Shown one piece after another: positions 521 through 16,896 of a stretch of DNA of 64,000 nucleotides. The position numbers and the translations under genes were made by a program. Numbering within the stretch: the first letter of the stretch is position 1; each line of letters begins with the position of its first letter. Location of the stretch: assembly GCF_014138265.1 (NCBI RefSeq), contig NZ_JACGXL010000002.1:372001-436000 (forward strand), read 5' to 3'. Under the pieces are notes generated by a model, which worked only from the letters and a program-made list of their open reading frames with translations, was not told the origin of the DNA and did not search any database. This DNA is from Dokdonella fugitiva. GTDB lineage: Bacteria; Pseudomonadota; Gammaproteobacteria; Xanthomonadales; Rhodanobacteraceae.

Positions 521-1723
521 ATGTCCACGATGGAGAGCGATTCGCGCCTGCGCCGCTGCAGTGTCCTGTTCGTCGAACCGCGCGAGACGCTCGACCTCGA
601 TCTTGCCGGACTGCTGGGCGGCCGTGACGTGGTGGCCTCGCATTGCCGCTGGGTCGCGCTGGCACCTCATCTCGACACCGAGGTCGACATCGACGACGAA
701 GAGCTGGCCGTGCTCGGCCGGGTGGGAGAAACGCCGTGGCGTCGATATGAAGACCTCGCATCGACCGCCTCGCGCGCCGTCCTTGCGCGCCTGCTCGACT
801 GCGGCCTGCTGATCAGCGATGCGCCCGCGCGCGAAGGCATGCGGCGACGCGACGAGATCGTGCGCGGAACGCATTGGCGCTCCCTATCGGCAGTCGCGCA
901 CATGTTCAGCCGTTGGCGCGGCACCGACGTCGCGGACGATGCACGCATCACGCGTGACCGCACCCTCGTCGATCTCGTCGACGAGTACGGGCTGCCGCCG
1001 CCGCACCGCGTCCAATGCGGCGAAGCGCGCATCGACCTGCCGGATTGCGAGACGACGGCGCTCGATGGCCTGCTGCGTTCGCGTACGACCTGTCGCAATT
1101 TCGATCCTAGCAGCGAGCTCGCGCCGGCGGATTTCGCCGCGGTGCTGAAGCGCGTCTTCGCGGCGCACGCCGTCAGCGAGCCGCTCGCCGGTGTGCAGGT
1201 CATCAAGCGCGCCAACCCTTCCGGCGGCGGGCTGCACCCGCTGGAGGCATACCTGCTGCTGCGTGGCGTGCAAGGGGTTGCCGCCGGCTTGTATCACTAC
1301 GATGTCGTCGGTCACGCGCTCGAACCGCTTGCCTTGCTCGACGCCGCCACCGCGACGGCACTCGCCGAACGCTTCGTCGCAGGCCAGAAGTACCTGTCCG
1401 GCGCGCACGCGCTGGTCGTGATCGCGGCACGCTTCCAGCGAACCTTCTGGAAATACCGCAACCACGCAAAGGCTTATCGCGTGCTTCTGCTCGAAGCAGG
1501 CCATGTCTCGCAGAACATCTATCTGGCCGCGACCGAGCTCGGGCTCGGCGCGTTCATCACAGCGGCGATCAACGAGGGCGACATCGAGCAGGCGTTCGGC
1601 CTCGATCCCCTCGAGCAGGGACCGATCGCGGTTTGTGGCTTGGGGATCCGCGCACGGCGCTGCGACGTGACCGAATTCGATCCGCTCGGCGTCGTGTGGG
1701 ACGAATCCGGGACGCGGCGCTGA
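521..1723 (+). CDS. SagB-like putative peptide maturation dehydrogenase
   Basis: A 400-residue protein. The first ~185 residues are a family-specific N-terminal region. The rest is an FMN-dependent nitroreductase fold of the SagB/ThcOx type: R-x2-C-R-N-F near residue 190, NPSGGGLHPLEAY near 230, and a later GHVSQNIYLAATELGLG segment. Family members oxidise modified peptide backbones using FMN. The gene is divergent from the precursor at 432, with an 88-base gap that must hold both promoters, so it probably acts on that peptide. The start could be the ATG at 521 or at 530; no strong ribosome binding site separates them. Family assignment is firm; the reaction on this precursor is inferred. Confidence 0.85.
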   Translation: MSTMESDSRLRRCSVLFVEPRETLDLDLAGLLGGRDVVASHCRWVALAPHLDTEVDIDDEELAVLGRVGETPWRRYEDLASTASRAVLARLLDCGLLISDAPAREGMRRRDEIVRGTHWRSLSAVAHMFSRWRGTDVADDARITRDRTLVDLVDEYGLPPPHRVQCGEARIDLPDCETTALDGLLRSRTTCRNFDPSSELAPADFAAVLKRVFAAHAVSEPLAGVQVIKRANPSGGGLHPLEAYLLLRGVQGVAAGLYHYDVVGHALEPLALLDAATATALAERFVAGQKYLSGAHALVVIAARFQRTFWKYRNHAKAYRVLLLEAGHVSQNIYLAATELGLGAFITAAINEGDIEQAFGLDPLEQGPIAVCGLGIRARRCDVTEFDPLGVVWDESGTRR

Positions 1724-1859
1724 CCGACGTGCCCGAAAGCCTGCGGGCGAGCCATCCCCAGCCACCCCCGATATCGGTGTCGACCGACACGGCCGGGACC
1801 GACGGCCAAGTTGCCCGACATGCCTAGGCAGATGCACGTGCTCGTTGCTAGGCTAGATG

Positions 1860-1874
1860 GCCCGATGTTCGGGC
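1860..1874 (+). other. Short hairpin in the leader of the 49-residue ORF
   Basis: GCCCGA and TCGGGC form a 6-bp stem with a 3-base loop. It sits about 15 bases before the ribosome binding site of the small ORF that starts at 1901. It could be a leader structure or an operator half. Its function is unknown. Confidence 0.4.
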
Positions 1875-1900
1875 ACCGCTCACCATAGAAGGGATCGAAG

Positions 1901-2050
1901 ATGACCAGCGAATCGCCGGAAAGCAAGGCCGTATTGACGTTCGAGGCGGCGAAGGGAAAGGCCCTGCCGGATCTTCCCGGTCAGGTGCAGCTCGCCTCCG
2001 AAACGGAAGAGCAGAAGTCCGTTATTTTCGTATTCGCCGCCGCCAAGTGA
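1901..2050 (+). CDS. Small 49-residue peptide, candidate RiPP precursor
   Basis: An ORF of 49 codons preceded by a good ribosome binding site (GAAGGGATCGAAG, then ATG). The N-terminal half is polar and charged (starting MTSESPESKAVLTFEAAKGK). The C-terminal half ends in a short hydrophobic tail, SVIFVFAAAK. It has no cysteine and no signal peptide. A perfect 9-bp hairpin follows 30 bases after the stop (2081-2102). Two translationally coupled cupin/HEAT-like genes come next. Size, charge split and position between a RiPP dehydrogenase and possible modifying enzymes suggest a second precursor peptide. I do not recognise the family. It could also be an orphan regulatory peptide. Confidence 0.55.
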   Translation: MTSESPESKAVLTFEAAKGKALPDLPGQVQLASETEEQKSVIFVFAAAK

Positions 2051-2080
2051 ATCTCGGCGATCGCAGCTCGTAGCATCCCG

Positions 2081-2102
2081 CCGGCCCACGCGAGTGGGCC
2101 GG
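2081..2102 (+). terminator. Perfect 9-bp stem-loop after the 49-residue ORF
   Basis: CCGGCCCAC and GTGGGCCGG pair perfectly around a GCGA (GNRA-type) tetraloop. No T-run follows, so this may be a partial terminator or RNA-stabilising hairpin. Such an element would give high expression of the peptide relative to the two genes downstream, as is common for precursor-enzyme operons. Confidence 0.6.
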
Positions 2103-2140
2103 TGGTCACATTGCGGGAACCGAAAGTTGCTTGTCGAAGC

Positions 2141-3049
2141 ATGAAATCCCCTACAGCAGGACAGGCTGCGATCTTCTGCAGGGCCGCATCTTCGTCTTCG
2201 GACACCCTCCCGGAGGACGCGAGCTGCATCCAATCGGTAGCCGTTTCCGGCGCCGATTTGTTGCGGCAAGACAGCGCCGACACGCGCCGGCACTTCGAAC
2301 ACGCATTGGATCGGTTGCAGCGGTCGGCGACGTTGGATCGCCTCGTTTCCGGCGAGGTATCCAGGCTCGCACACGACGGCGCGTACATCCCCGAACGCGT
2401 CGTTCCGGGGCGCTTGTCGCTCTACGAGAACGCGGACTGTCGCCTTGACCTCGTGACCACGCGCACGAGCGCCGAGCAACCGTCGACGTTCCTGTATTCG
2501 AACACCACGAGTCTCGTGCACGTTTCACTCGACGATTCGGCGCGCGTCTCGATCTCGGCCTACCAGGCGCCTCGGGTCGAGCGCAACGACACGTTCGTCG
2601 CCGGAGCGAAGCTCGAGTTGATCGAGCAGCGGAACCTCGACCGCTATCACGCTATCCGCGCGTCGGCGGACGGGCTTACGGCGCACGACCTGTGCAGCGA
2701 CCGACCTTCGGTCCTGCTCCGTCTCGCGCTGAAACGGGAGCTTCCTTTCGTTTGGGGATTCGATCGCGAAGTACTGGCTGCGAAGTTCTACTACCCGAGC
2801 GACGTGGGAGCTTCGAGGAGGGCGCTCGCCATCGATTTCCTGCTCGCCACATCCCACCCGCGGCTCGCCGAGTTGTGCTCGCTGTTGCGAGCCAGCCAAT
2901 GGCATTTCCTGCGCTGGCGCGCGATCCAGGTCATGGCGAGGGAGGGTTTCGCCACCGTCGACGAGTTGATGCATGCGGCGTGCGACGACAATCATCCCGA
3001 GATCCGCTCCGCGGCCCGCGATACGCTCGATCAGATGGCGCAGGCGTAG
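2141..3049 (+). CDS. Uncharacterised protein, degenerate cupin-like with C-terminal HEAT-like helices
   Basis: A 302-residue protein of unknown function. The middle (~95-190) is beta-rich and aligns loosely by eye with the cupin-like part of the next gene, but lacks its H-N-H pair. The last ~75 residues are helical, with HEAT-like spacing (for example SQWHFLRWRAIQVMAREGF, then a segment ending RSAARDTLDQM). The ATG at 2141 is used; a GTG at 2102 in the same frame would overlap the hairpin. The stop is 4 bases before the next ATG, so the two genes are very probably co-translated. I infer a non-catalytic partner of the downstream protein. Confidence 0.65.
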   Translation: MKSPTAGQAAIFCRAASSSSDTLPEDASCIQSVAVSGADLLRQDSADTRRHFEHALDRLQRSATLDRLVSGEVSRLAHDGAYIPERVVPGRLSLYENADCRLDLVTTRTSAEQPSTFLYSNTTSLVHVSLDDSARVSISAYQAPRVERNDTFVAGAKLELIEQRNLDRYHAIRASADGLTAHDLCSDRPSVLLRLALKRELPFVWGFDREVLAAKFYYPSDVGASRRALAIDFLLATSHPRLAELCSLLRASQWHFLRWRAIQVMAREGFATVDELMHAACDDNHPEIRSAARDTLDQMAQA

Positions 3050-3053
3050 GCCG

Positions 3054-3863
3054 ATGCCCGTCAAGATGCCTTCGGTCGCGTGCCGACCAGTTTCTCTGGC
3101 CGAGTACGTCGAACACATCGAGGCGGAAGTCGACTTCCGGGATCGTGACTCGATCATCGCGTCGGCGCCCATGCTGCAACGGCTTGCAGCGAACAAGAAC
3201 TTCTTTGGCGATTGGCTGATCGACCAGCTGTCCGCCGACGCGAGCGAGTTCCAGCGCGGCAACGACTACAACTACCAGTCGATCGTCCTGCGCGTCACCG
3301 ACGACTATTTGCTGAGGGTCAATTTCTGGGTTCCCGAAGCGCACATTGCGAAGCATGGAGCACGTGAAACGGTGGCGTTCGGTTACAACGCGTACCACAA
3401 CCACAATTTTAATTTGTTGACAGTCGGATACAGCGGTTCGGGTTACGCGACCGACATCTACCGCATGCGTGAGCCGTTCCGCGCGCACGAGATCGGCGAC
3501 GAACCGGACCTCGAAGCATTGGGACGATGGCACCTCGGCTGCGGCGAAGTGATGTTCTACGATGCATTCAGGGATGTGCACTCGCAGATCGCACCAGCTG
3601 AGCTGTCCGTGTCGATCAACCTCATGACTCATTCGGCGCGCGACACCTGGCCGCAATACATGTTCGACGCGCAAACGATGGCGATAACCGGTATCGTCGG
3701 ATCGCCCCTGGATGCGCGCATACATCTGCTGACAGTTGCCAAGCGCCTGGTTCCCGGACTCGCGAATGAAGCCCTGCAGGACCTCGCAAGGAACGATCCG
3801 TCTCCGAGGCTGCGAAAACTTGCTGCTGACGCATTGGATGATCGCTTCACCGATTGGCGCTAG
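3054..3863 (+). CDS. Cupin-like putative metal-binding protein with C-terminal HEAT-like segment
   Basis: A 269-residue protein. A central beta-rich region carries YHNHNFNLLTVGYSGSGY (His at about 115 and 117) and, about 60 residues later, a GEVMFYDAFRDVHSQI segment (His about 176). This order resembles the two metal-binding motifs of cupins and cysteine-dioxygenase-like enzymes. The C-terminus is helical, with a HEAT-like end (EALQDLARNDPSPRLRKLA). It starts 4 bases after the stop of the preceding gene. No exact family is recognised. An iron-dependent oxygenase acting on a peptide is one possibility suggested by the 49-residue ORF upstream; this is inference only. Confidence 0.65.
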   Translation: MPVKMPSVACRPVSLAEYVEHIEAEVDFRDRDSIIASAPMLQRLAANKNFFGDWLIDQLSADASEFQRGNDYNYQSIVLRVTDDYLLRVNFWVPEAHIAKHGARETVAFGYNAYHNHNFNLLTVGYSGSGYATDIYRMREPFRAHEIGDEPDLEALGRWHLGCGEVMFYDAFRDVHSQIAPAELSVSINLMTHSARDTWPQYMFDAQTMAITGIVGSPLDARIHLLTVAKRLVPGLANEALQDLARNDPSPRLRKLAADALDDRFTDWR

Positions 3864-3905
3864 ACGCGTCCCGTGGGCGATCGCGGTCCATGAAATCGCA
3901 AGGCT

Positions 3906-3931
3906 GCGCACACCGCGTTTGGTTGTTCGAA
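3906..3931 (+). repeat. 26-base imperfect repeat, copy A
   Basis: This 26-base segment differs at only three positions from 4668-4693. The shared core reads ACACCGCGT. The two copies lie in direct orientation on either side of the VOC gene. The origin is unknown; it may be a remnant of a mobile or duplicated intergenic element. Confidence 0.5.
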
Positions 3932-3992
3932 CCGACCGGCATTTCGCTCGGACGCACGGCGGCGCTGTCCCGTGTCTGACGCGAGGAATACT

Positions 3993-4433
3993 CTACGCGC
4001 GCTGCTCGGCAAGCCCAATAATGATGCTTTCGGGACCACGGATGTAACAGAGCCGAGACATGTCCCTGTAGTGCACGATTTCGCCGACGAGTTGGGCGCC
4101 ATGGGTCTGCAAGCGTGCGAGGACTTCATCGACATCGTCAACGACGAACATGACGCGCCGTATGCCGAGCGTGTTTACCGAAGCGTTCTTCGGCTCTGCA
4201 TTGACCGCCGCCGGCGCACGGAATTTGAGCAGCTCGATCCGACCGTGACCGTCCGGGGTCTGCATCATCGCGATCTCACACTGAACACCCTCGAGCCCAA
4301 CGACAATATCCACCCAGCGTCCCTCGAGGGGCATCTCACCTTGCAACTCCATACCGAGCTCTACAAAAAACGCTTTAGCAGCCTCAAGGTCGTCAACCAC
4401 GAGGAGAACGTTGTCCATCCGTTGAAGCGCCAT
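3993..4433 (-). CDS. VOC family (glyoxalase/dioxygenase-type) protein
   Basis: A 146-residue single-domain protein with the paired beta-alpha-beta-beta-beta pattern of the vicinal oxygen chelate superfamily. It starts with MDNVLLVVDDLEAAKAFF and the second module begins IRRVMFVVDDVDEVLARL. The end, LCYIRGPESIIIGLAEQ, holds the usual C-terminal Glu strand. Family members bind a metal and act on small molecules (glyoxalases, bleomycin or fosfomycin resistance proteins, dioxygenases). The substrate cannot be deduced. The gene stands alone, flanked by two copies of a 26-base repeat. Confidence 0.8.
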   Translation of the reverse strand: MALQRMDNVLLVVDDLEAAKAFFVELGMELQGEMPLEGRWVDIVVGLEGVQCEIAMMQTPDGHGRIELLKFRAPAAVNAEPKNASVNTLGIRRVMFVVDDVDEVLARLQTHGAQLVGEIVHYRDMSRLCYIRGPESIIIGLAEQRA

Positions 4434-7574: not shown

Positions 7575-8168
7575 TCAGGACGGCTCCCGCGCGAGATCGC
7601 CCGGCGTGTCGAGATCGCGCGCGAGCGCCGGCGCGGCGATCGCGATGACATCGTCCGCGCGCTCGCGCAGCAGCGCCCGCGCGCCGGTGTCGCCGCGCAA
7701 CTGCAGGATGCCGGCGAACCACGCGCGCGGCAGCAGCGCCGGCACGCCGAGCACGCCGGCGTAGGCGCTCGCGCTCGCTCGCGCGGGCGTCGCTCGCCAG
7801 GCGTCGCGCAATGCTCGCAGGTGCGCGCCATCGAGCGCAGGCTGGTCGGTCAGCGCGACGAGCGCGCCGTCGCAATCGGCCGGCAGCGCGGCGACGCCGG
7901 CGCGCAGCGAGGCAGCGAGGCCCTCGGCGTGGTCGCGCGCGACGATCCGCTGGAGCGGCAAGTCGGCGATGCAAGCGCCCACCGCGGCCGCGTCGTGGCC
8001 GAGAACGACGACGAGCGTATGCGGAGACGTTTCGAGCAGTGCGCGCGCCGCGCGCCGCAACAGCGGCTCGCCGTCGATCTCGATCAGCTGCTTGGCGCGA
8101 CCGAGCCGCGTCGACGCGCCCGCGGCGAGCAGCACGGCGCCGTGCGCGAGCTCATGCGTGCGCTGCAC
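7575..8168 (-). CDS. MobA-like nucleotidyltransferase (molybdenum cofactor maturation)
   Basis: About 197 residues. The N-terminal AVLLAAGASTRLGRAKQLIEI is the nucleotide-binding signature of MobA/MocA-type NTP transferases, followed by ALTDQPALDG, a metal-binding DQP motif. Such proteins attach CMP or GMP to molybdopterin for xanthine-oxidase-family enzymes. The reading frame has no usable ATG near the motif. A GTG at 8168, 17 bases inside the end of the XdhC gene, is the most reasonable start. Its neighbours on both sides are molybdenum hydroxylase genes, which fits the role. A 178-base gap separates it from the 2Fe-2S subunit. Confidence 0.82.
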   Translation of the reverse strand: MQRTHELAHGAVLLAAGASTRLGRAKQLIEIDGEPLLRRAARALLETSPHTLVVVLGHDAAAVGACIADLPLQRIVARDHAEGLAASLRAGVAALPADCDGALVALTDQPALDGAHLRALRDAWRATPARASASAYAGVLGVPALLPRAWFAGILQLRGDTGARALLRERADDVIAIAAPALARDLDTPGDLAREPS

Positions 8169-9192
8169 GCGCGAATTCCTGCTGCAGCTGCGCGACGATC
8201 GCGAGCGCGATCGCCTCGGCGCCTTCGCCGCCGAGCCGCAGGCCGATCGGCGCATGCAGGCGCGCCCGCAGCGCGTCGCGCGCGTCGCCGATCTCCGCCA
8301 GCAGTTCGTCGCGCCGCGCGGCGGGACCGAGCAGGCCGACGTACGGCACCGCGCTCGCGGCGAGCGCGCGCAGGCAGCGCGCGTCGAGATCGAGGTTGTG
8401 GTTCATCACGAGCGCGGCGTCGAAGCGTGTCGCCGCAACGACGTCGGCGAGCCGGTCGGGACCGTCGCGATGCTCGTCGTCGATGCCGCTGCCCGTGGCG
8501 AAGCGCAGCCAGCGCTCGCGATGTTCGGCGAGTTCGACGCGCCAGCCGAGCAGGCGCGTGAGCGCGAGCAGCGGTCGCGTCTCCGGACCCGCACCGAGCA
8601 GCAGCACGCGCGGCGCCGGTGCCACGCGCACGTGGCCGGTCGTCGCGAACGCGATGTCGTCGTCGACGGCTCCGCCGCGTTCGTCGAAGCGATAACGTTC
8701 GTCGCCGGCGCATGCTTCGCCGCTGCCGAGGCGCTCGCCGTCGGTGACGAAGTCGAGCACGAGTTCGACGTCCCGCGCGTCGGCCGCGCGCAGCGCGCGG
8801 CGCAGCGGCGCGTTGCTCGCCGGCAGCGGCAGCAGCAATACGTCGATCGAGCCGCCGCAACCGGTGCCCGATCCGAACACGCGATCCTCGTCGCCGCTCG
8901 TGTCGAAGCGCGCCGACTGCGCGCTGCCGTTGGCGAGCACGTCGCGCGCGCGCGCCTCGAGCTCGGCTTCGAGGCAACCGCCCGACAACGCGCCGACGCG
9001 GACGCCGGCCGCATCGAGCAGCACCAGTGCACCCGGCTTGCGATAGGTCGAACCGCTGCTGCCGACGACCACGCAGAGAACGCCGTCGCGCCGCGCGGCG
9101 GCGAGTGACTCGACGCCGGCGACGAGCGCGCGCAAGCCGCCGAGCGGCGGCGGCGGAAGCGACGGTTCGACGACGATCGGCATGCGAGTCAT
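8152..9192 (-). CDS. XdhC/CoxI family molybdenum-cofactor insertion protein
   Basis: A 346-residue protein. The N-terminal XdhC domain has VVGSSGSTYRKPGALVLL and GALSGGCLEAELEARA. The C-terminal Rossmann-like domain has RVLLLGAGPETRPLLAL and later NHNLDLDARCLRAL. XdhC proteins bind, sulfurate and hand over the Mo cofactor to xanthine-oxidase-family enzymes. It is the first gene of the minus-strand operon (XdhC, MobA-like, 2Fe-2S subunit, Mo subunit). The start may be 9192 or the in-frame ATG 9 bases later. Confidence 0.9.
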   Translation of the reverse strand: MTRMPIVVEPSLPPPPLGGLRALVAGVESLAAARRDGVLCVVVGSSGSTYRKPGALVLLDAAGVRVGALSGGCLEAELEARARDVLANGSAQSARFDTSGDEDRVFGSGTGCGGSIDVLLLPLPASNAPLRRALRAADARDVELVLDFVTDGERLGSGEACAGDERYRFDERGGAVDDDIAFATTGHVRVAPAPRVLLLGAGPETRPLLALTRLLGWRVELAEHRERWLRFATGSGIDDEHRDGPDRLADVVAATRFDAALVMNHNLDLDARCLRALAASAVPYVGLLGPAARRDELLAEIGDARDALRARLHAPIGLRLGGEGAEAIALAIVAQLQQEFARAAHA

Positions 9193-9261
9193 ATTCCCGG
9201 GAAACGCTCATCATAACGACGCGCATCGGGCGGCGGCGCAGACCGCGTCACAGGCTGCCGC

Positions 9262-11040
9262 TCAGCGCGCCACGAAACGACTCGGCAACAGGCGCGCGAG
9301 CCACGGTCGTCGCACGAGCACGTTGCCGAGCCGCTCGAGCTTGAGGCCGACCTTGCGCACGCCGTCGTCGTCGAGCTCGCGCGCGATCAGGCTCACCGGG
9401 CCGAGCCGCACGCGGTCGCCGATTTCGATCGTGTGTTCGTAGCGGCGCGTGAAGTGCTCGGCGAGCGTGAGCGGCGCGTCCTTCGCGCGGATCGGCAAAG
9501 CGTAGAACTCGGCGACGTCGGCGAGGCGCACGTCGGCGTCGAAGCTGAACTCGCCGAACATCTCGCGCTCCGCCTCGCGCGCTTCTTCCGGCGGCGCGAA
9601 CAGCCAGTCGAGGCGGTAGACGCGGCCGGGTGGCGCGAGCAGGTAGGCATAGTCGCCACCGGCGAGCGGGCCGCTCGCGTCGGGCATGAGGATCGCGCCG
9701 CCGCGCACGATCATCGCGAGCTGCGCCCAGCCGGGCAATGGCGCACCGGTGAGGATCGCCGCACCCGGTGCGACCGCGTAGCCGACCATCTCGCGTTCGA
9801 GCGAACCGGGCAGGTCGAGCTCGACGCGCCGCACCGCGCGATCGCGGTGCGGCAGCGCGACGTCGAGCAGGCGCGCGGCGAGGCCGAGCGTCCAGCCCTG
9901 CACGAGCAGCGACGCGAGCACGACGATGAACGCGACGTTGAAGATCAGCTGCGCGTTCGGCAGCCGCATGAGCATCGGTATCGAGGCGAGGAAGATGCCG
10001 ACCGCCCCGCGCAGGCCGACCCACGCGACGAAGCCGATCTCGCGCTTGCCGTAACGGAAAGGTGCGAGGCAGAGCGTGACCGCGAGCGGACGGCCGACCA
10101 GCATGAGGAACGCGGCGAGGCCGAGTGCTGGCAGCAGCGCCGGACCGAGAGTATGCGGCGTCGCGAGCAGCCCGAGCACGAGGAACATCACGATTTGGCA
10201 CAGCCACGTGCCCGCATCGAGCACCGACAGCAGGTTGGCGAAACCGGGCACGTTGCGGTTGCCGACGACGACGCCGGCGAAGTAGACCGCGAGGAACGCG
10301 CTGCCGTGCAGCCAGCCGGTGACGCCGAACACGAACAGTGCGGCGGCGACGAGGAACAACGCGGCGAGGCCACCCGTCAGCGGCAACCGGCGCATCGCGG
10401 CGGCGATCGCGAATCCGCCGAACGCACCGCCGAGCGCGCCGACGCCGAACTGCAGCGCGAGTTCGAGCGCGATGTCGCCTGCGGTGACGCCGGTCGGCGC
10501 GGCGAGGAACTCGGCGAGCAAGGTCGTCAGCAACACCGCGACCGGATCGTTCGCGCTCGATTCGATCTCGAGCGTCGCGCCGACGCGCGAGCGCAGTTGC
10601 AGGCCACCCGCGCGCAGCAGGAAGAACACCGCGGCCGCGTCGGTCGAGGCGACGACCGAACCGAGCAGCAGCGCCTGCACCGGGCCGAGGCCGAGCAGCG
10701 CGCGCGCGGCGAGGCTCGTGAGCGCGGCGGTCACGACCACGCCGACCGTCGCCAGCAACAGGGTCGGCGCGGAAACACCGCGGAAGCTTTCGCGTCGCGT
10801 GCGCAGCCCGCCGTCGAACAGGATCACCGCGAGCGCGAGCGAACCGATGCGATAGGTCGTGCCGACGTCGTCGAAATGGATGCCACCAGGACCATCGACG
10901 CCGGCGAGCATGCCGACGACGAGGAACACGAGCAGCAACGGGGCGCCGAAGCGACGCGCGACGAGGCTCGAGCCGATGCCGACGAGGACCAGCGCGGAGG
11001 CGGCGGCGAGCAACCAGTAGATGTCGTGGATCGCATTCAT
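9262..11040 (-). CDS. nhaP2: Potassium/proton antiporter, CPA1 family (NhaP2/CvrA type)
   Basis: A 592-residue membrane protein. About a dozen hydrophobic helices form a Na+/H+-exchanger fold. The conserved EIESSANDPVAVLL contains the ion-binding ND pair, and VAWVGLRGAVGIFLA is the second hallmark. After residue ~400 comes a cytosolic TrkA-C-like region (REMVGYAVAPGAAILTG) and a CorC/HlyC-type C-terminal domain. This layout and length match E. coli CvrA/NhaP2. It exports K+ in exchange for protons at the inner membrane. The ATG at 11040 is chosen over an upstream in-frame TTG. Confidence 0.88.
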   Translation of the reverse strand: MNAIHDIYWLLAAASALVLVGIGSSLVARRFGAPLLLVFLVVGMLAGVDGPGGIHFDDVGTTYRIGSLALAVILFDGGLRTRRESFRGVSAPTLLLATVGVVVTAALTSLAARALLGLGPVQALLLGSVVASTDAAAVFFLLRAGGLQLRSRVGATLEIESSANDPVAVLLTTLLAEFLAAPTGVTAGDIALELALQFGVGALGGAFGGFAIAAAMRRLPLTGGLAALFLVAAALFVFGVTGWLHGSAFLAVYFAGVVVGNRNVPGFANLLSVLDAGTWLCQIVMFLVLGLLATPHTLGPALLPALGLAAFLMLVGRPLAVTLCLAPFRYGKREIGFVAWVGLRGAVGIFLASIPMLMRLPNAQLIFNVAFIVVLASLLVQGWTLGLAARLLDVALPHRDRAVRRVELDLPGSLEREMVGYAVAPGAAILTGAPLPGWAQLAMIVRGGAILMPDASGPLAGGDYAYLLAPPGRVYRLDWLFAPPEEAREAEREMFGEFSFDADVRLADVAEFYALPIRAKDAPLTLAEHFTRRYEHTIEIGDRVRLGPVSLIARELDDDGVRKVGLKLERLGNVLVRRPWLARLLPSRFVAR

Positions 11041-11106
11041 TCGTCGGTGCTCCGGCAAGGATCATAGCCGGTTGTCGAACGCGCCGACGCGCGCCGCGGC
11101 CGGCGC

Positions 11107-12606
11107 TCAGGCGCCGAAGCGGCGGTACTGGATCGCCTCGGCGAGGTGCACGGCGTCGATGCGCTCGCTGGCGGCGAGGTCGGCGAGCGTACGTGCGACG
11201 CGCAGCACGCGGTGGTAGGCACGCGCCGACAGGCCGAGCCGCTCGACCGCACGATCGAGCAACGCGTGCAGGCTCGCATCGAGCGCGCAGTCGCGCTCGA
11301 CTTCGCGGTTGCCGAGCCACGCGTTCGGCTTGCCCGCGCGCTGCAGCTGGCGCACGCGCGCACTCGCGACGCGCGCACGCACGGTCGCGCTGTGCTCGCC
11401 GGCGGCGCCGTCGCGCAACTCGGCATGCGCGACGCGCGGCATCTCGAGCTTGAGGTCGATGCGATCGAGCAATGGACCCGACAGGCGCGCGCGGTAGCGT
11501 GCGATCATGTCCGGCGTGCAGCGGCAGCGACCGGACGCGTCGCCTGCATATCCGCACGGGCACGGGTTCATCGCCGCGACGAGCTGGAAGCGCGCGGGAA
11601 ACTCCGCCTGGCGCGCCGCACGCGAGATCGCGATGCGGCCGGATTCGAGCGGCTCGCGCAGCACTTCGAGCACGTGGCGATCGAACTCGACGATCTCGTC
11701 GAGGAACAACACGCCGTGGTGCGCGAGCGAGATCTCGCCGGGGCGCGGCACGGTGCCGCCGCCGACGAGCGCGGCGGCCGACGCGGTGTGGTGCGGCGCG
11801 CGGAACGCGCGCCGCTTCCAGTTCGCGACGTCGGTGTCGTGGCCGGCGACCGAGCGCACCGCGGCGAGCTCCAATGCCTCGTGCTCGTCGAGTGGCGGCA
11901 GGATGCCGGGCAGTCGGCTCGCGAGCATCGTCTTGCCGGTGCCGGGCGGCCCGACCAGCAACAGGTTGTGCGCGCCCGCGGCGGCGACCTCGAGCGCGCG
12001 CCGCGCGTGCGGCTGGCCGCGCACGTCGGACAGGCACGGCGACGCGATCGCGACGGTGTCGGTCATGTCGTCGACTTCCGCGTGCGGCAGGTCGATGCGG
12101 CCGGCGAGGTGCGCGCACACTTCGAGCAGCGAGCCGGCGACGCGCACGTCGGCATCTTCGACGAGCGCGGCCTCGCGCGCGTTCTCGCGCGGCACGATCA
12201 CGCGCCGTCCGCGTCGCGTCGCCTGCAATACCGCGGGCAGGACGCCGCGCACCGCGCGCAGTTCGCCCGACAGCGCGAGCTCGCCGATGAACTCGCAGCC
12301 ATCGAGCGCGTCGCGCGGCACGCTGCCGTTGGCGGCGAGCACGCCGAGCGCGATCGGCAGGTCGAAGCGGCCGCCCTCCTTGGGCAAGTCCGCCGGCGCG
12401 AGATTGACGGTGACCTTGCGCTGCGGGTACTCGAGCTGCGCGTTGAGGATCGCCGCGCGCACGCGATCGCGCGCTTCCTTCACGGTCGTTTCCGGCAAGC
12501 CGACGATCGACGTGCCCGGCAGGCCGCCCGAAAGGTGCACTTCGCAGGAGACGAGCGGCGCGACAATGCCGACTTGCGCGCGGCTGTAGACGACCGCGAG
12601 GCTCAT
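11107..12606 (-). CDS. comM: YifB/ComM family Mg-chelatase-like AAA+ ATPase
   Basis: A 499-residue protein. The N-terminal ChlI-like domain starts MSLAVVYSRAQVG and has LSGGLPGTSIVGLPETTVKE. The AAA+ core contains the Walker A motif GPPGTGKT, the Walker B-like GVLFLDEIVEF and the cysteine segment NPCPCGYAGDASGRCRC. ComM is a hexameric helicase that promotes branch migration during natural transformation. The start at MSLAVV matches the family; a longer in-frame extension to 12714 is not supported. The gene stands alone on the minus strand, between the antiporter and ubiK. Confidence 0.92.
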   Translation of the reverse strand: MSLAVVYSRAQVGIVAPLVSCEVHLSGGLPGTSIVGLPETTVKEARDRVRAAILNAQLEYPQRKVTVNLAPADLPKEGGRFDLPIALGVLAANGSVPRDALDGCEFIGELALSGELRAVRGVLPAVLQATRRGRRVIVPRENAREAALVEDADVRVAGSLLEVCAHLAGRIDLPHAEVDDMTDTVAIASPCLSDVRGQPHARRALEVAAAGAHNLLLVGPPGTGKTMLASRLPGILPPLDEHEALELAAVRSVAGHDTDVANWKRRAFRAPHHTASAAALVGGGTVPRPGEISLAHHGVLFLDEIVEFDRHVLEVLREPLESGRIAISRAARQAEFPARFQLVAAMNPCPCGYAGDASGRCRCTPDMIARYRARLSGPLLDRIDLKLEMPRVAHAELRDGAAGEHSATVRARVASARVRQLQRAGKPNAWLGNREVERDCALDASLHALLDRAVERLGLSARAYHRVLRVARTLADLAASERIDAVHLAEAIQYRRFGA

Positions 12607-12817
12607 CGGCGTGCCGGCGGCGCGGCGGAAAAAGAGCCCGCCGTCCGCGCCATGGGGTGAACTGCGGCGGACAGCGGGCATCCCGGGAAATCCGTTCGGC
12701 GGCATTCCATGCAAGCGGCCTCCCTGCCGCGGACGCGTTCGCCCGTCGCCGCCGCAGCGGCGCGTCCCTTCGATGAGCGGGCGGATGAAGGCGACGGCGG
12801 TGCCGCCGCGACGTGCG

Positions 12818-13084
12818 TCAGTGCTTCGGCGCGGGGTTCGCCGCGAGGCTGCGTTCGAGCGCGAGCACCTGCTGCTCGAGCTCCTCGATCTTCTCGCGCG
12901 TGCGCAGCAGCACGCAGCGTTGCACGTCGAATTCCTCGCGCGTGACGAGATCGAGGTCGCGCAGGCCGGCTTGCAGCGCGCTGCGGAAGTTCGCCGTGAG
13001 GTCGGCGCGCGCTTCGTGCAGACCCGGTGGCACGAGCGCCGCGAGGCGCTGTGCGAGCGTGTCGATGGCTTGGACGTGGATCAT
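12818..13084 (-). CDS. ubiK: Ubiquinone biosynthesis accessory factor UbiK (YqiC/BMFP family)
   Basis: An 88-residue helical protein. The N-terminal half, with RADLTANFRSALQAGLRDLDL, and the middle VTREEFDVQRCVLLRTREK are the family signature. The C-terminal EKIEELEQQVLALERSL is a coiled coil. UbiK trimerises through this coiled coil and supports the UbiJ-UbiK lipid-binding complex in aerobic ubiquinone synthesis. It reads away from the PII gene; the gap between them is 307 bases. A ubiA gene lies at 36067 but is not linked. Confidence 0.9.
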   Translation of the reverse strand: MIHVQAIDTLAQRLAALVPPGLHEARADLTANFRSALQAGLRDLDLVTREEFDVQRCVLLRTREKIEELEQQVLALERSLAANPAPKH

Positions 13085-13730
<646 letters not shown>

Positions 13731-13770
13731 CGCGCTGCGCGCGCGTCATGCCGGGACGGCGGCGCGATCC

Positions 13771-16700
13771 TCATCCGGCATCCGCGCCGACACCTTCGAT
13801 GTCCGCCTCGACGTAGGCGATGCCGCCCACGCTGCCGGCGTCCGCGCGGGCGCCGACGACGCGGTCCCGACCGGCGCATTTCGCGCGATAGAGCGCTGCG
13901 TCCGCGAACGTGATGACCTGGTCGACGCTGCCGTGGCGCGGCGCGCGCGCGTCGAACGGAAACGCGGCCCAGCCGATCGAGCACGTCACCTGCAGCGGCG
14001 TCGCGCCGACGATGAACGGTGTCGACGCGATCGCGTCGCGCAGGCGCAGCGCCGAAGCACACGCGCGCTCGCGCTCGGTGTCGCGCAGCACGACGAGGAA
14101 CTCCTCGCCGCCCCAGCGCAGCGCGACGTCGCCGCTGCGCAGCAGCGCGCGCACGCGCCGCGCGAACTCGACCAGCACCGCGTCGCCCGCGGCGTGGCCG
14201 TGCGCGTCGTTGATGCGCTTGAAGTGGTCGACGTCGGCGAGCACGAAGATGAGGTCGGCCGCGCACTCGCCGCGCACGGCGCGGCGGATCGCGCGCTCGC
14301 ACTCGGGCGGCAGCTCGAGGCCGAAGTAGCGACGGTTCCACAGGCCGGTGAGCGGATCGGTCAGCGACGCGTGCGCGAGCTGCCGGTTCGCCTCGGCGAG
14401 CGCGCGCGTGCGTTCGCCGACTTCGTGCTCGAGCGCGCGGGCGCGCGCGGCGAATGCGCGGGCGCGCACCCGTCCCGCGAACAGCCCGAGCAGGATCATC
14501 GCCGCGGCGTAGAGCAGGAACGCCCACGGCCGGCGCCACCACGGCGCGTGCACGCGGAACGCGTGCGAAACCGTTCCGCTCTCGACGCCGTCGGCGGCGC
14601 GCGCCCACGCACGAAATTCGTAGCGGCCGGGCGGCAGGCGGCTGTAGCTGCGGTGAGCGCTGTCGTTCCACTCGCCCGGCTGCGGCTCGAGCCCGACCAG
14701 CTGCGTGCGATACCGCGTGCGGTAGTCGCGCTGGTAGGACAGCAGTCCGAGCTCGAACGCGACGTTGCTGGAGGCTTCGTCGAGGTCCGCGCTGTCACCG
14801 AGATCGCCGCCGCCGCGTTCCTCCTTCGCGGCGAGGATACGCAGCGGCCGCGGCGCCGCCGGCGGCCGCTCCGATGCCGGGTCGTACATCGCCGCGCCTT
14901 CGATCGTGCCGCCCCACAGGCGGCCCTGCGCGTCGAGCAGCGAAGCACGCGTGAACTCGAGGTCGGGCAAGCCGTCGGCGAGATCGAATCGTTCGATGCC
15001 GGCGTCGTCGGGACCACGGTAGCCGGCCGGTAGGCGCAGCACGCCGTTCGCGCCGAACAGGTACATGCGCTCGCGCGCATCGAACTGCAGCTGGTAGATC
15101 GAGGCTGCGTTCGGCGACGTCGGCAGTGCGATCCGCGTGCACGCGAGATCGCGATCGAGGTCGACGCGCAGCACGCCGTCGAACGTCGCGACCCAGAGCC
15201 CATGCGCATGACCCGGGGCGCCGCGCTCGCGCAGGTCGAACACCGCGGTGTCGCCGAGCCCGCTGCAGGCGAGCCGGCGCCAGGCGCCGTCGCGCGCGAA
15301 ATACAGGCCGTGTTCGGATCCCGCCCAGAGCGTCGCCGCACCGCTCGCGTCGCGCGTGTCGCGCAGCACGCGCACGAAGAAGTCCGCGGGCTCTTCGGGC
15401 ACGGCTTCGCGCTCGAGGCGGTCGCCGCGCACGCGCGCGATGCCATGTCGCGTGCCGAGCCACAGCGTGTCGCCGCCGTCGCCATGCTGCAGGTGGAGGC
15501 CGACGACGGTGTCGTCCGGCAGCGCCGAGTTCGCGCTCGTGTACGCACGCACGCCGTCGCTGGCGACGCGCAGCAGGCCTTCGCGTGTTGCGACCCAGAG
15601 GTGGTCGCCGTCGCGCACGACGTCGAACACTTCGCTGCGCGCGTATTTGGCCGGCAGCCACGACCGCCATTCGTCGCCGTCGCGACGCACGCTGCCGCCG
15701 CTCGTGCCGATCCAGACCGCTTCCTCGCCGTCGAGGAAGCGCGTTTCGCCGAGCGCGAGCACGACGCGATGCGGCAGGCCGTCGCGTTCGACGAACGCGG
15801 ACCACGTCTGCGGTTCGCCGCGCAGCACGCCGCTGTGGCCGGAGCCGAGCCAGAGCACGGGCGAAGGCTGGTCGGCGTCGGTGACGAGCGCGGTGTTGAT
15901 CGCGTTCTCGGGCAGGCCGTTCGCGGTCGTCGTGCGCCGCCAGTGGCCGTCGTCGTCGAACTCGGCGAGGCCGCCGGTCGACAAGGTCGCGACGAGGCGC
16001 TCGCCGCCGCTCGCGCGCGGCATGCGCACGAAACGACTCGCACCGCCGGCGAACCCCGAAGCGCCGGCGTACACGAGGAGGGTCGCGTCGGCGAGTCGCG
16101 CGACACCGCGCGCGGTCGCGATCCACAGGTCATGGCCGTTCGCGCCGCCCCATTCGGCGAGCGCGGCGACCGCATCGTCGGGCAGTCCGTCCGCGTGCGT
16201 GAGTCGCCAGGCCGATCGGTGCGACGAGCCACGCGCGTCGTCGATGCGCACGACCCCCGCATCGCCCGTGCCGACGTACAGGGAGGCGACCGTCGCGCCG
16301 CGTGCGGGCAGCAGGCTGCGCACGTGCAGGCCGCGAGCAGCGTCGAGCGCACGACAACCGTCGGCATCGCAGCGGTCGATACCGTCGTCGGTACCGACCC
16401 AGACGACGTCCGCGTCGGTCTGCAGGCAGGTGACGCCGCCGCTCGCTGCCGTCGCCAGCGCGCGCCGCTCGAGCCGGCCGTCGCGCCAGGCGTACAGGCC
16501 GGCCGTATCCGTGCCGATCCAGAGCGTGCCGTCCGCCGCGGCGGCGAGCGCGGTCACGTACGGCTGCCGCGTCGACGCCCCGGGCGGAAGCGGCACGCCA
16601 ACCCAGCGCCGGCCGTCGTAGCGCGCCAGGCCTTCCTCGGTGCCCGCGTAGACGAACCCGTCGCGATCCTGCGCGAGCGCGGTGACCCAGTTGCGCGGCA

Positions 16701-16896
16701 CGCCTTCGCGGCTCGCGTAGCGCCGGTAGCTCTGCCAGCGCAGTGACGCGTCGTGGGTCGGCGCGGGCCCGTCGACGACCGCCGGCGGCGCGGCGCCGGC
16801 CGCTGCGCAGAACACGAGCGCGAGCACCGCGGCGCCGATGCGGCGCGCGTGCGCGAGCCCGCGAGAGCGGCGCAAACGGCGGGCGATTGGCAACAT
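13771..16896 (-). CDS. Periplasmic propeller / Y_Y_Y sensor with cytoplasmic diguanylate cyclase
   Basis: A 1041-residue protein. It starts with a signal-like hydrophobic segment. Then come many ~45-residue repeats of the two-component-regulator propeller type (for example WIGTDTAGLYAWRDGRL, LWLGTRHGIARVRGDRL), a Y_Y_Y domain (SYSRLPPGRYEFRAWARAADG), one membrane helix and a GGDEF domain. The active site is GGEEF near 929-933, and an RSGD inhibitory site stands five residues before it. It should make cyclic di-GMP, with product inhibition, in response to a periplasmic ligand. The same architecture occurs at 39761. No histidine kinase domain is present. The ribosome binding site is weak. Confidence 0.88.
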   Translation of the reverse strand: MLPIARRLRRSRGLAHARRIGAAVLALVFCAAAGAAPPAVVDGPAPTHDASLRWQSYRRYASREGVPRNWVTALAQDRDGFVYAGTEEGLARYDGRRWVGVPLPPGASTRQPYVTALAAAADGTLWIGTDTAGLYAWRDGRLERRALATAASGGVTCLQTDADVVWVGTDDGIDRCDADGCRALDAARGLHVRSLLPARGATVASLYVGTGDAGVVRIDDARGSSHRSAWRLTHADGLPDDAVAALAEWGGANGHDLWIATARGVARLADATLLVYAGASGFAGGASRFVRMPRASGGERLVATLSTGGLAEFDDDGHWRRTTTANGLPENAINTALVTDADQPSPVLWLGSGHSGVLRGEPQTWSAFVERDGLPHRVVLALGETRFLDGEEAVWIGTSGGSVRRDGDEWRSWLPAKYARSEVFDVVRDGDHLWVATREGLLRVASDGVRAYTSANSALPDDTVVGLHLQHGDGGDTLWLGTRHGIARVRGDRLEREAVPEEPADFFVRVLRDTRDASGAATLWAGSEHGLYFARDGAWRRLACSGLGDTAVFDLRERGAPGHAHGLWVATFDGVLRVDLDRDLACTRIALPTSPNAASIYQLQFDARERMYLFGANGVLRLPAGYRGPDDAGIERFDLADGLPDLEFTRASLLDAQGRLWGGTIEGAAMYDPASERPPAAPRPLRILAAKEERGGGDLGDSADLDEASSNVAFELGLLSYQRDYRTRYRTQLVGLEPQPGEWNDSAHRSYSRLPPGRYEFRAWARAADGVESGTVSHAFRVHAPWWRRPWAFLLYAAAMILLGLFAGRVRARAFAARARALEHEVGERTRALAEANRQLAHASLTDPLTGLWNRRYFGLELPPECERAIRRAVRGECAADLIFVLADVDHFKRINDAHGHAAGDAVLVEFARRVRALLRSGDVALRWGGEEFLVVLRDTERERACASALRLRDAIASTPFIVGATPLQVTCSIGWAAFPFDARAPRHGSVDQVITFADAALYRAKCAGRDRVVGARADAGSVGGIAYVEADIEGVGADAG

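Follow-up and report, generated by a model that had tools for sequence, protein, structure and literature searches.

The 64,000-nucleotide stretch of a Dokdonella genome examined here (contig NZ_JACGXL010000002.1, positions 372,001 to 436,000; hereafter the window) carries on its forward strand a short open reading frame (ORF) followed by two larger genes, which we term A and B. The ORF (1901..2050) encodes 49 residues from an ATG start, closely preceded by a Shine-Dalgarno-like AGAAGGG (1887..1893), and is the well-started frame that an earlier, sequence-only reading of this DNA had picked out; its product, a candidate precursor peptide, has an LPDL..V element at residues 22-29 and the hydrophobic tail SVIFVFAAAK. 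Gene A (2141..3049) encodes 302 residues from the ATG at 2141, with an alternative in-frame GTG at 2102. Gene B (3054..3863; 269 residues) begins after a 4-nt gap, the spacing given by the earlier reading. That reading saw in the three genes the shape of a new peptide-modification system, a proposal that our analysis supports at the level of the family, with a function that we infer.

The pair is widely but thinly distributed. Counting the genome of the window itself in each case, B is present in 7 of 100 related genomes, in 2 of 369 genomes of the class (small profile), and in 15 of 398 genomes of the phylum (larger profile). A scan of named genomes with a pattern fixing H115, H117, and nearby residues of B returned 224 relatives, and the best 80 of these, which we retained, fall mostly in Sphingomonadales, with others in Xanthomonadales, Acidobacteria, Blastopirellula, Nannocystis, Mucilaginibacter, Flavobacterium, Alteromonas, and one Streptomyces; several genomes appear under two locus identifiers (e.g., L010/L016, L011/L040, and L012/L033). 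An A-like gene lies 5' of B in 78 of the 80 loci, with none at threshold in L085 and B at a contig edge in L092, and the two genes mostly overlap or nearly abut. Two A-B pairs stand in tandem with several different candidate precursors in L063 and L081, the second pair of L063 being followed by HlyD, ABC, and FtsX genes, and Mucilaginibacter endophyticus (L024, L044) has two separate cassettes in one genome whose candidate precursors differ. In Xanthomonas L031, A is split over two reading frames, and in L060 it is a short ORF, so A may be broken while B stays open. The locus titled Bacillus sp. 2B10 (L078) has a precursor nearly identical to those of the Sphingomonas loci L064, L065, and L091 and probably comes from a mislabelled genome. 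A distant A-B-like pair on a plasmid of Vibrio sp. ED002 (L103) has a Tn3 transposase and a restriction-modification system nearby, and a 59-residue ORF is annotated 3' of B.

Comparison of the predicted structure of B with the PDB indicates a cupin beta-barrel of the three-histidine (3-His) thiol-dioxygenase type, with a short HEAT-like tail. This agrees with the cupin metal site proposed from the sequence, whose histidines, given there as approximate positions, are exactly H115 and H117 (the H115-N116-H117 pair, codons 3396..3404) and H176 (codon 3579..3581). The three putative metal ligands are kept in 82 of 82 family sequences, H115 and H117 being fixed by the scan pattern, and in 23 of 23 loci found without that pattern; R88, W92, D174, Q178, N189, and Q201 are invariant as well. 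(The family set holds 82 B and 81 A sequences, with L010-L015, L097, A-like ORFs below 14 bits, and one ORF each without a usable start excluded; the alignments for structure modelling held 63 B and 60 A sequences.) Because the site is of the 3-His type, iron and oxygen are suggested for B, which is probably an iron enzyme with the cysteine-dioxygenase (CDO) fold. A is a paralogue of B without the metal ligands, with a predicted cupin-like barrel and a HEAT tail. Neither protein has an NCBIfam match at E ≤1, B has no Pfam match, and no cupin or CDO model matches any of 63 B family members at E 0.1 or better. The HEAT-like character that the earlier reading assigned to the two genes is weak in A of the window (a C-terminal HEAT_2 match at E 0.0034, under the Pfam cut-off), but HEAT_2 is matched by 26 of the 63 B homologues at E 0.1 or better; beyond HEAT, matches in these homologues are scattered and weak (e.g., DUF693 in three, ThiI_fer in one, and gallate dioxygenase in one).

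A family of short peptides accompanies the pair. Clustering of neighbouring genes gave two groups of 41-62-residue peptides encoded 5' of A, one in 27 loci and the other in 24, with a common front (e.g., IDLASLPDLDTLTGLFGS) and a hydrophobic end. A profile built from them reaches at least 20 bits in 54 of the 80 loci, 10-20 bits in nine, and less than 10 bits in 17, and its six best matches beyond the tested zones are peptides that themselves adjoin pairs (L012, L013). Among 13 loci unused in training, some with close kin of training peptides, nine score at least 20 bits, one 18.9, and one 8.2, and two have nothing above 6; these are the 16 available loci minus the window, G095 (previously seen), and one with a peptide identical to a training peptide, and both the window and G095 have nothing above 6 bits in the same set. 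In a control that uses no profile, the region upstream was positive in 38 of 77 cases for A vs 15 of 720 for other genes. The peptides are also constrained as coding sequence, with synonymous (pS) and nonsynonymous (pN) proportions of 0.403 and 0.092 over 14 close pairs that were hand-chosen for closeness and share members. The unused loci, the profile-free control, and the pS/pN ratio together reject a chance ORF as the explanation of the whole family. Peptide, A, and B are thus co-conserved, as the sequence-only reading would have it, at the family level, although the peptide of the window itself is a marginal member and is shortened in the nearest relative.

The alignment of 81 precursors shows a common front element and diverging hydrophobic ends, Val and Ile accounting for 27% of the final 22 residues; 51 of the 81 came from the clusters and 30 were picked by eye, so that composition counts are biased toward what was sought. 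Judged from these alignments, the candidate precursors have the conserved leader and variable core by which a ribosomally synthesized and post-translationally modified peptide (RiPP) system is recognized. Two or three different peptides stand in series in L021, L032, L063, and L081, and the peptide lies 3' of B in L013 and L031. On an Alteromonas plasmid, two unannotated peptides (38 and 41 residues, with hand-chosen starts) are encoded between exporter-type genes and A. In Dyella (L012/L033), two near-identical precursor genes lie ∼700 bp apart 5' of A, with cores of Gly-Val/Ala repeats (VAVGVGVAVGLGVGIAV).

We propose, with a probability of roughly two in three, that the trio is a scattered RiPP-like cassette in which the precursor is oxidized by B with A as a partner, and the product is exported in some lineages. 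The short gene would encode the precursor, the front of which, with its LPxLxxxV-like element, is probably the part recognized, and the hydrophobic, Val/Ile-rich C-terminal end of which would be the core. (Many, not all, RiPP classes use a RiPP recognition element domain for this step.) B, as a mononuclear nonheme iron enzyme coordinated by H115, H117, and H176, would oxidize the core, with aliphatic or backbone positions, not cysteine, as the most likely targets. A, having lost the metal ligands, would pair with B and bind or present the precursor, and the HEAT tails may aid binding. In some lineages, an ABC transporter with its genes next to the cassette would export the product. We infer the iron, the A-B complex, the recognition of the leader, the reaction, and any bioactivity. 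The more specific claim, that a heterodimer of a CDO-fold iron enzyme and its metal-less twin oxidizes aliphatic or backbone positions of a thiol-free hydrophobic core and so defines a new RiPP class, is tentative, and we would put it somewhat below even odds; to our knowledge, such chemistry is not known for the 3-His fold.

Several observations weigh against the proposed cassette. Because the scan pattern itself requires H115 and H117, all 80 scan loci have both by construction, and the pattern-free loci are the fair test. Of the 17 loci that score below 10 bits, L064 and L076 have a clear peptide missed by the ORF rules, and the rest have candidates picked by eye or none. Cys is absent from 48 of the 81 precursors, 11 of which lack Tyr too. 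A precursor thiol is therefore not the general substrate, and we reject oxidation of precursor cysteines as the general reaction; a small thiol may still serve as a substrate. Export genes are not general to the family, since a stricter motif search found ABC ATPases within ∼2.8 kb in only five loci, and none of the 20 Erythrobacteraceae-type loci listed contributes to the ABC cluster described below. The modified product, the complex, and the activity are themselves predictions. The peptide of the window scores 1.8 bits with the family profile, a value matched by 73 of 5000 shuffles and 19 of 1156 background ORFs, and 0.6 bits with a broader profile, reached by 230 of 5000 shuffles and 83 of 1156 background ORFs. 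(The first profile reported a score for 3894 shuffles and 879 background ORFs and the second for 4533 and 992; the odds use the full totals, and the background set includes at least one true peptide.) In the nearest relative, Dokdonella fugitiva (G015, L010/L016), A and B are retained, with B 92% identical; the peptide gene there has lost its start and 22 codons. Here ∼207 bp are gone, corresponding in the window to 1760..1966 (ends approximate) and spanning the upstream region, the ribosome site, and the first 22 peptide codons. A search of the D. fugitiva genome for a second copy of the peptide yielded nothing beyond the remnant and a single match at E 0.85.

These last points bear on the possibility that, in this genome only, the 49-residue ORF is decayed or a chance frame and that the pair has another substrate or is declining. 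With profile scores this low, support for the membership of the peptide is marginal, consisting of its position and of sequence odds of 1.5 to 7% by chance; no NCBIfam match at E ≤1 and no Pfam match was found for it, its one PHROG match is weak (phrog_3812, E 0.014), and the search of the genome of the window found no second copy either. It nevertheless occupies the position of the family peptides on the correct strand, has a good ribosome site, carries LPDLPGQV, which fits the LPxLxxxV element, in family order, and ends in a hydrophobic stretch. Between the two species, moreover, A (nonsynonymous divergence [dN] 0.029, synonymous divergence [dS] 0.089, dN/dS ∼0.33) and B (dN 0.038, dS 0.27, dN/dS ∼0.14) remain under constraint. 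We consider a decayed or chance ORF unlikely. The silent divergence of A between the window and L010 is far below that of the adjacent B and of the SagB-type dehydrogenase (0.353), which may reflect either recent recombination or extra constraint.

A second possibility is that the peptide is a membrane-active toxin or signal, with A and B its neutralizer or receptor and not modifying enzymes. The hydrophobic tails, the LuxR-, sigma-70-, and OmpR-type regulator genes that adjoin some loci, and the sporadic spread of the pair (7 of 100 genomes; 15 of 398 in the phylum) are all consistent with such a role. We nonetheless judge it improbable, as the invariant 3-His set with R, W, D, Q, and N residues in a predicted dioxygenase fold favors catalysis, and none of five proteins tried matches PADLOC, a result that also leads us to reject antiphage defense. 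A phage origin is rejected too, with one relative in IMG/VR (a single contig, L101, encoding a protein 30% identical to B) and no PHROG family for A or B.

The sequence-only reading placed the peptide gene between two hairpins and took the second, together with the size of the peptide, to fit expression of precursor over enzyme. The downstream hairpin is real: a perfect 12-bp stem with a GCGA loop and no T-run lies between the peptide gene and A (2078..2105), and the 106-nt stretch 3' of the peptide folds with a z-score of −2.67, with one of 200 shuffles equally stable. The upstream one is unremarkable (z −0.62; 50 of 200 shuffles). We reject the hairpins as a terminator, since the region 1700-4000 has two terminator-like sites against 2.1 expected, neither adjoining the peptide; no promoter-like site was found. 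A hairpin after the peptide, moreover, is not a family trait, because the gap between peptide and A is <25 nt in 39 of 50 loci, often near 10 nt. The least probable reading is that the ORF encodes a leader peptide with a regulatory role, its translation controlling A and B through this stem or through the coupling that so short a gap permits, and that A and B act on some other target. Against it, the amino acid sequence is constrained and patterned (pS 0.40 vs pN 0.09), and a cis-acting leader leaves unexplained both the serial peptides, including those of the Alteromonas plasmid, and the peptides 3' of B.

The RiPP cassette that the earlier reading noted next door exists, with a TIGR04509 precursor (178-432), a TIGR04511 dehydrogenase (521-1723), and a TIGR04510 cyclase upstream. 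Its models describe a putative peptide modification system. In this genome (locus L002), it occurs twice in tandem (8098-16723, 5' of and into positions 1-1723 of the window), and its precursors have diverged. Like the trio, it joins a precursor to an oxidoreductase in a RiPP-type arrangement in this genome, but neither A nor B is matched by any of its models. Among 86 clustered loci, the dehydrogenase and cyclase of this cassette accompany the pair solely in the two from Dokdonella (L002 and L016), and we reject the pair as a part of this SagB/NHLP cassette. Export is suggested by an ABC ATPase cluster with members in 17 of the 86 loci and by HlyD, FtsX/MacB, and ABC2 genes near loci of the family; ABC_tran accounts for 11 of 73 hand-chosen neighbour genes.

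Among known systems, the 3-His dioxygenases of cysteine, 3-mercaptopropionate, and mercaptosuccinate are the closest in predicted fold. B differs from them in its HEAT-like tail and its metal-less partner A, in the lack of a cupin or CDO model match across its 63 members, and in the 48 of 81 candidate substrates without Cys. JmjC enzymes have an HxD/E...H site and use 2-oxoglutarate; B has H115-x-H117...H176 instead. Pairs of the MbnB/MbnC and TglH/TglI types likewise combine an iron oxygenase, a partner, and a short precursor, with the TIM-barrel fold of multinuclear nonheme iron-dependent oxidases (MNIOs), whereas the predicted fold here is a cupin and the partner is paralogous to the enzyme. 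PbsQ, from the pbs RiPP cluster, is a cupin-like hydroxylase related to JmjC enzymes; its gene was overlooked in annotation, and it is partnered by an MNIO, an arginase, and a B12 radical S-adenosylmethionine enzyme (PMC12257519). The trio resembles this system in the proposed action of a cupin-fold oxygenase on a ribosomal precursor and in a gene missed by annotation, but none of these partner types is among the 25 neighbour families, drawn from the 73 hand-chosen genes, listed for the pair. We found no such pair in open-access full text, a search whose scope lay outside most subscription journals and all bioRxiv preprints. A cupin-like oxygenase in a RiPP pathway is known, but PbsQ is of the JmjC type, and we regard the trio as a candidate RiPP family with an enzyme type that would be new.

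Overall, two genes and a short substrate offer a testable candidate class of peptide-modifying enzymes across distantly related bacteria. If active, they would bring peptide tailoring within the range of the thiol-dioxygenase fold and give RiPP chemistry a pair of enzyme and pseudoenzyme. If the proposal is true, a RiPP class spread over several phyla would have been easily overlooked, since its precursor is so short.
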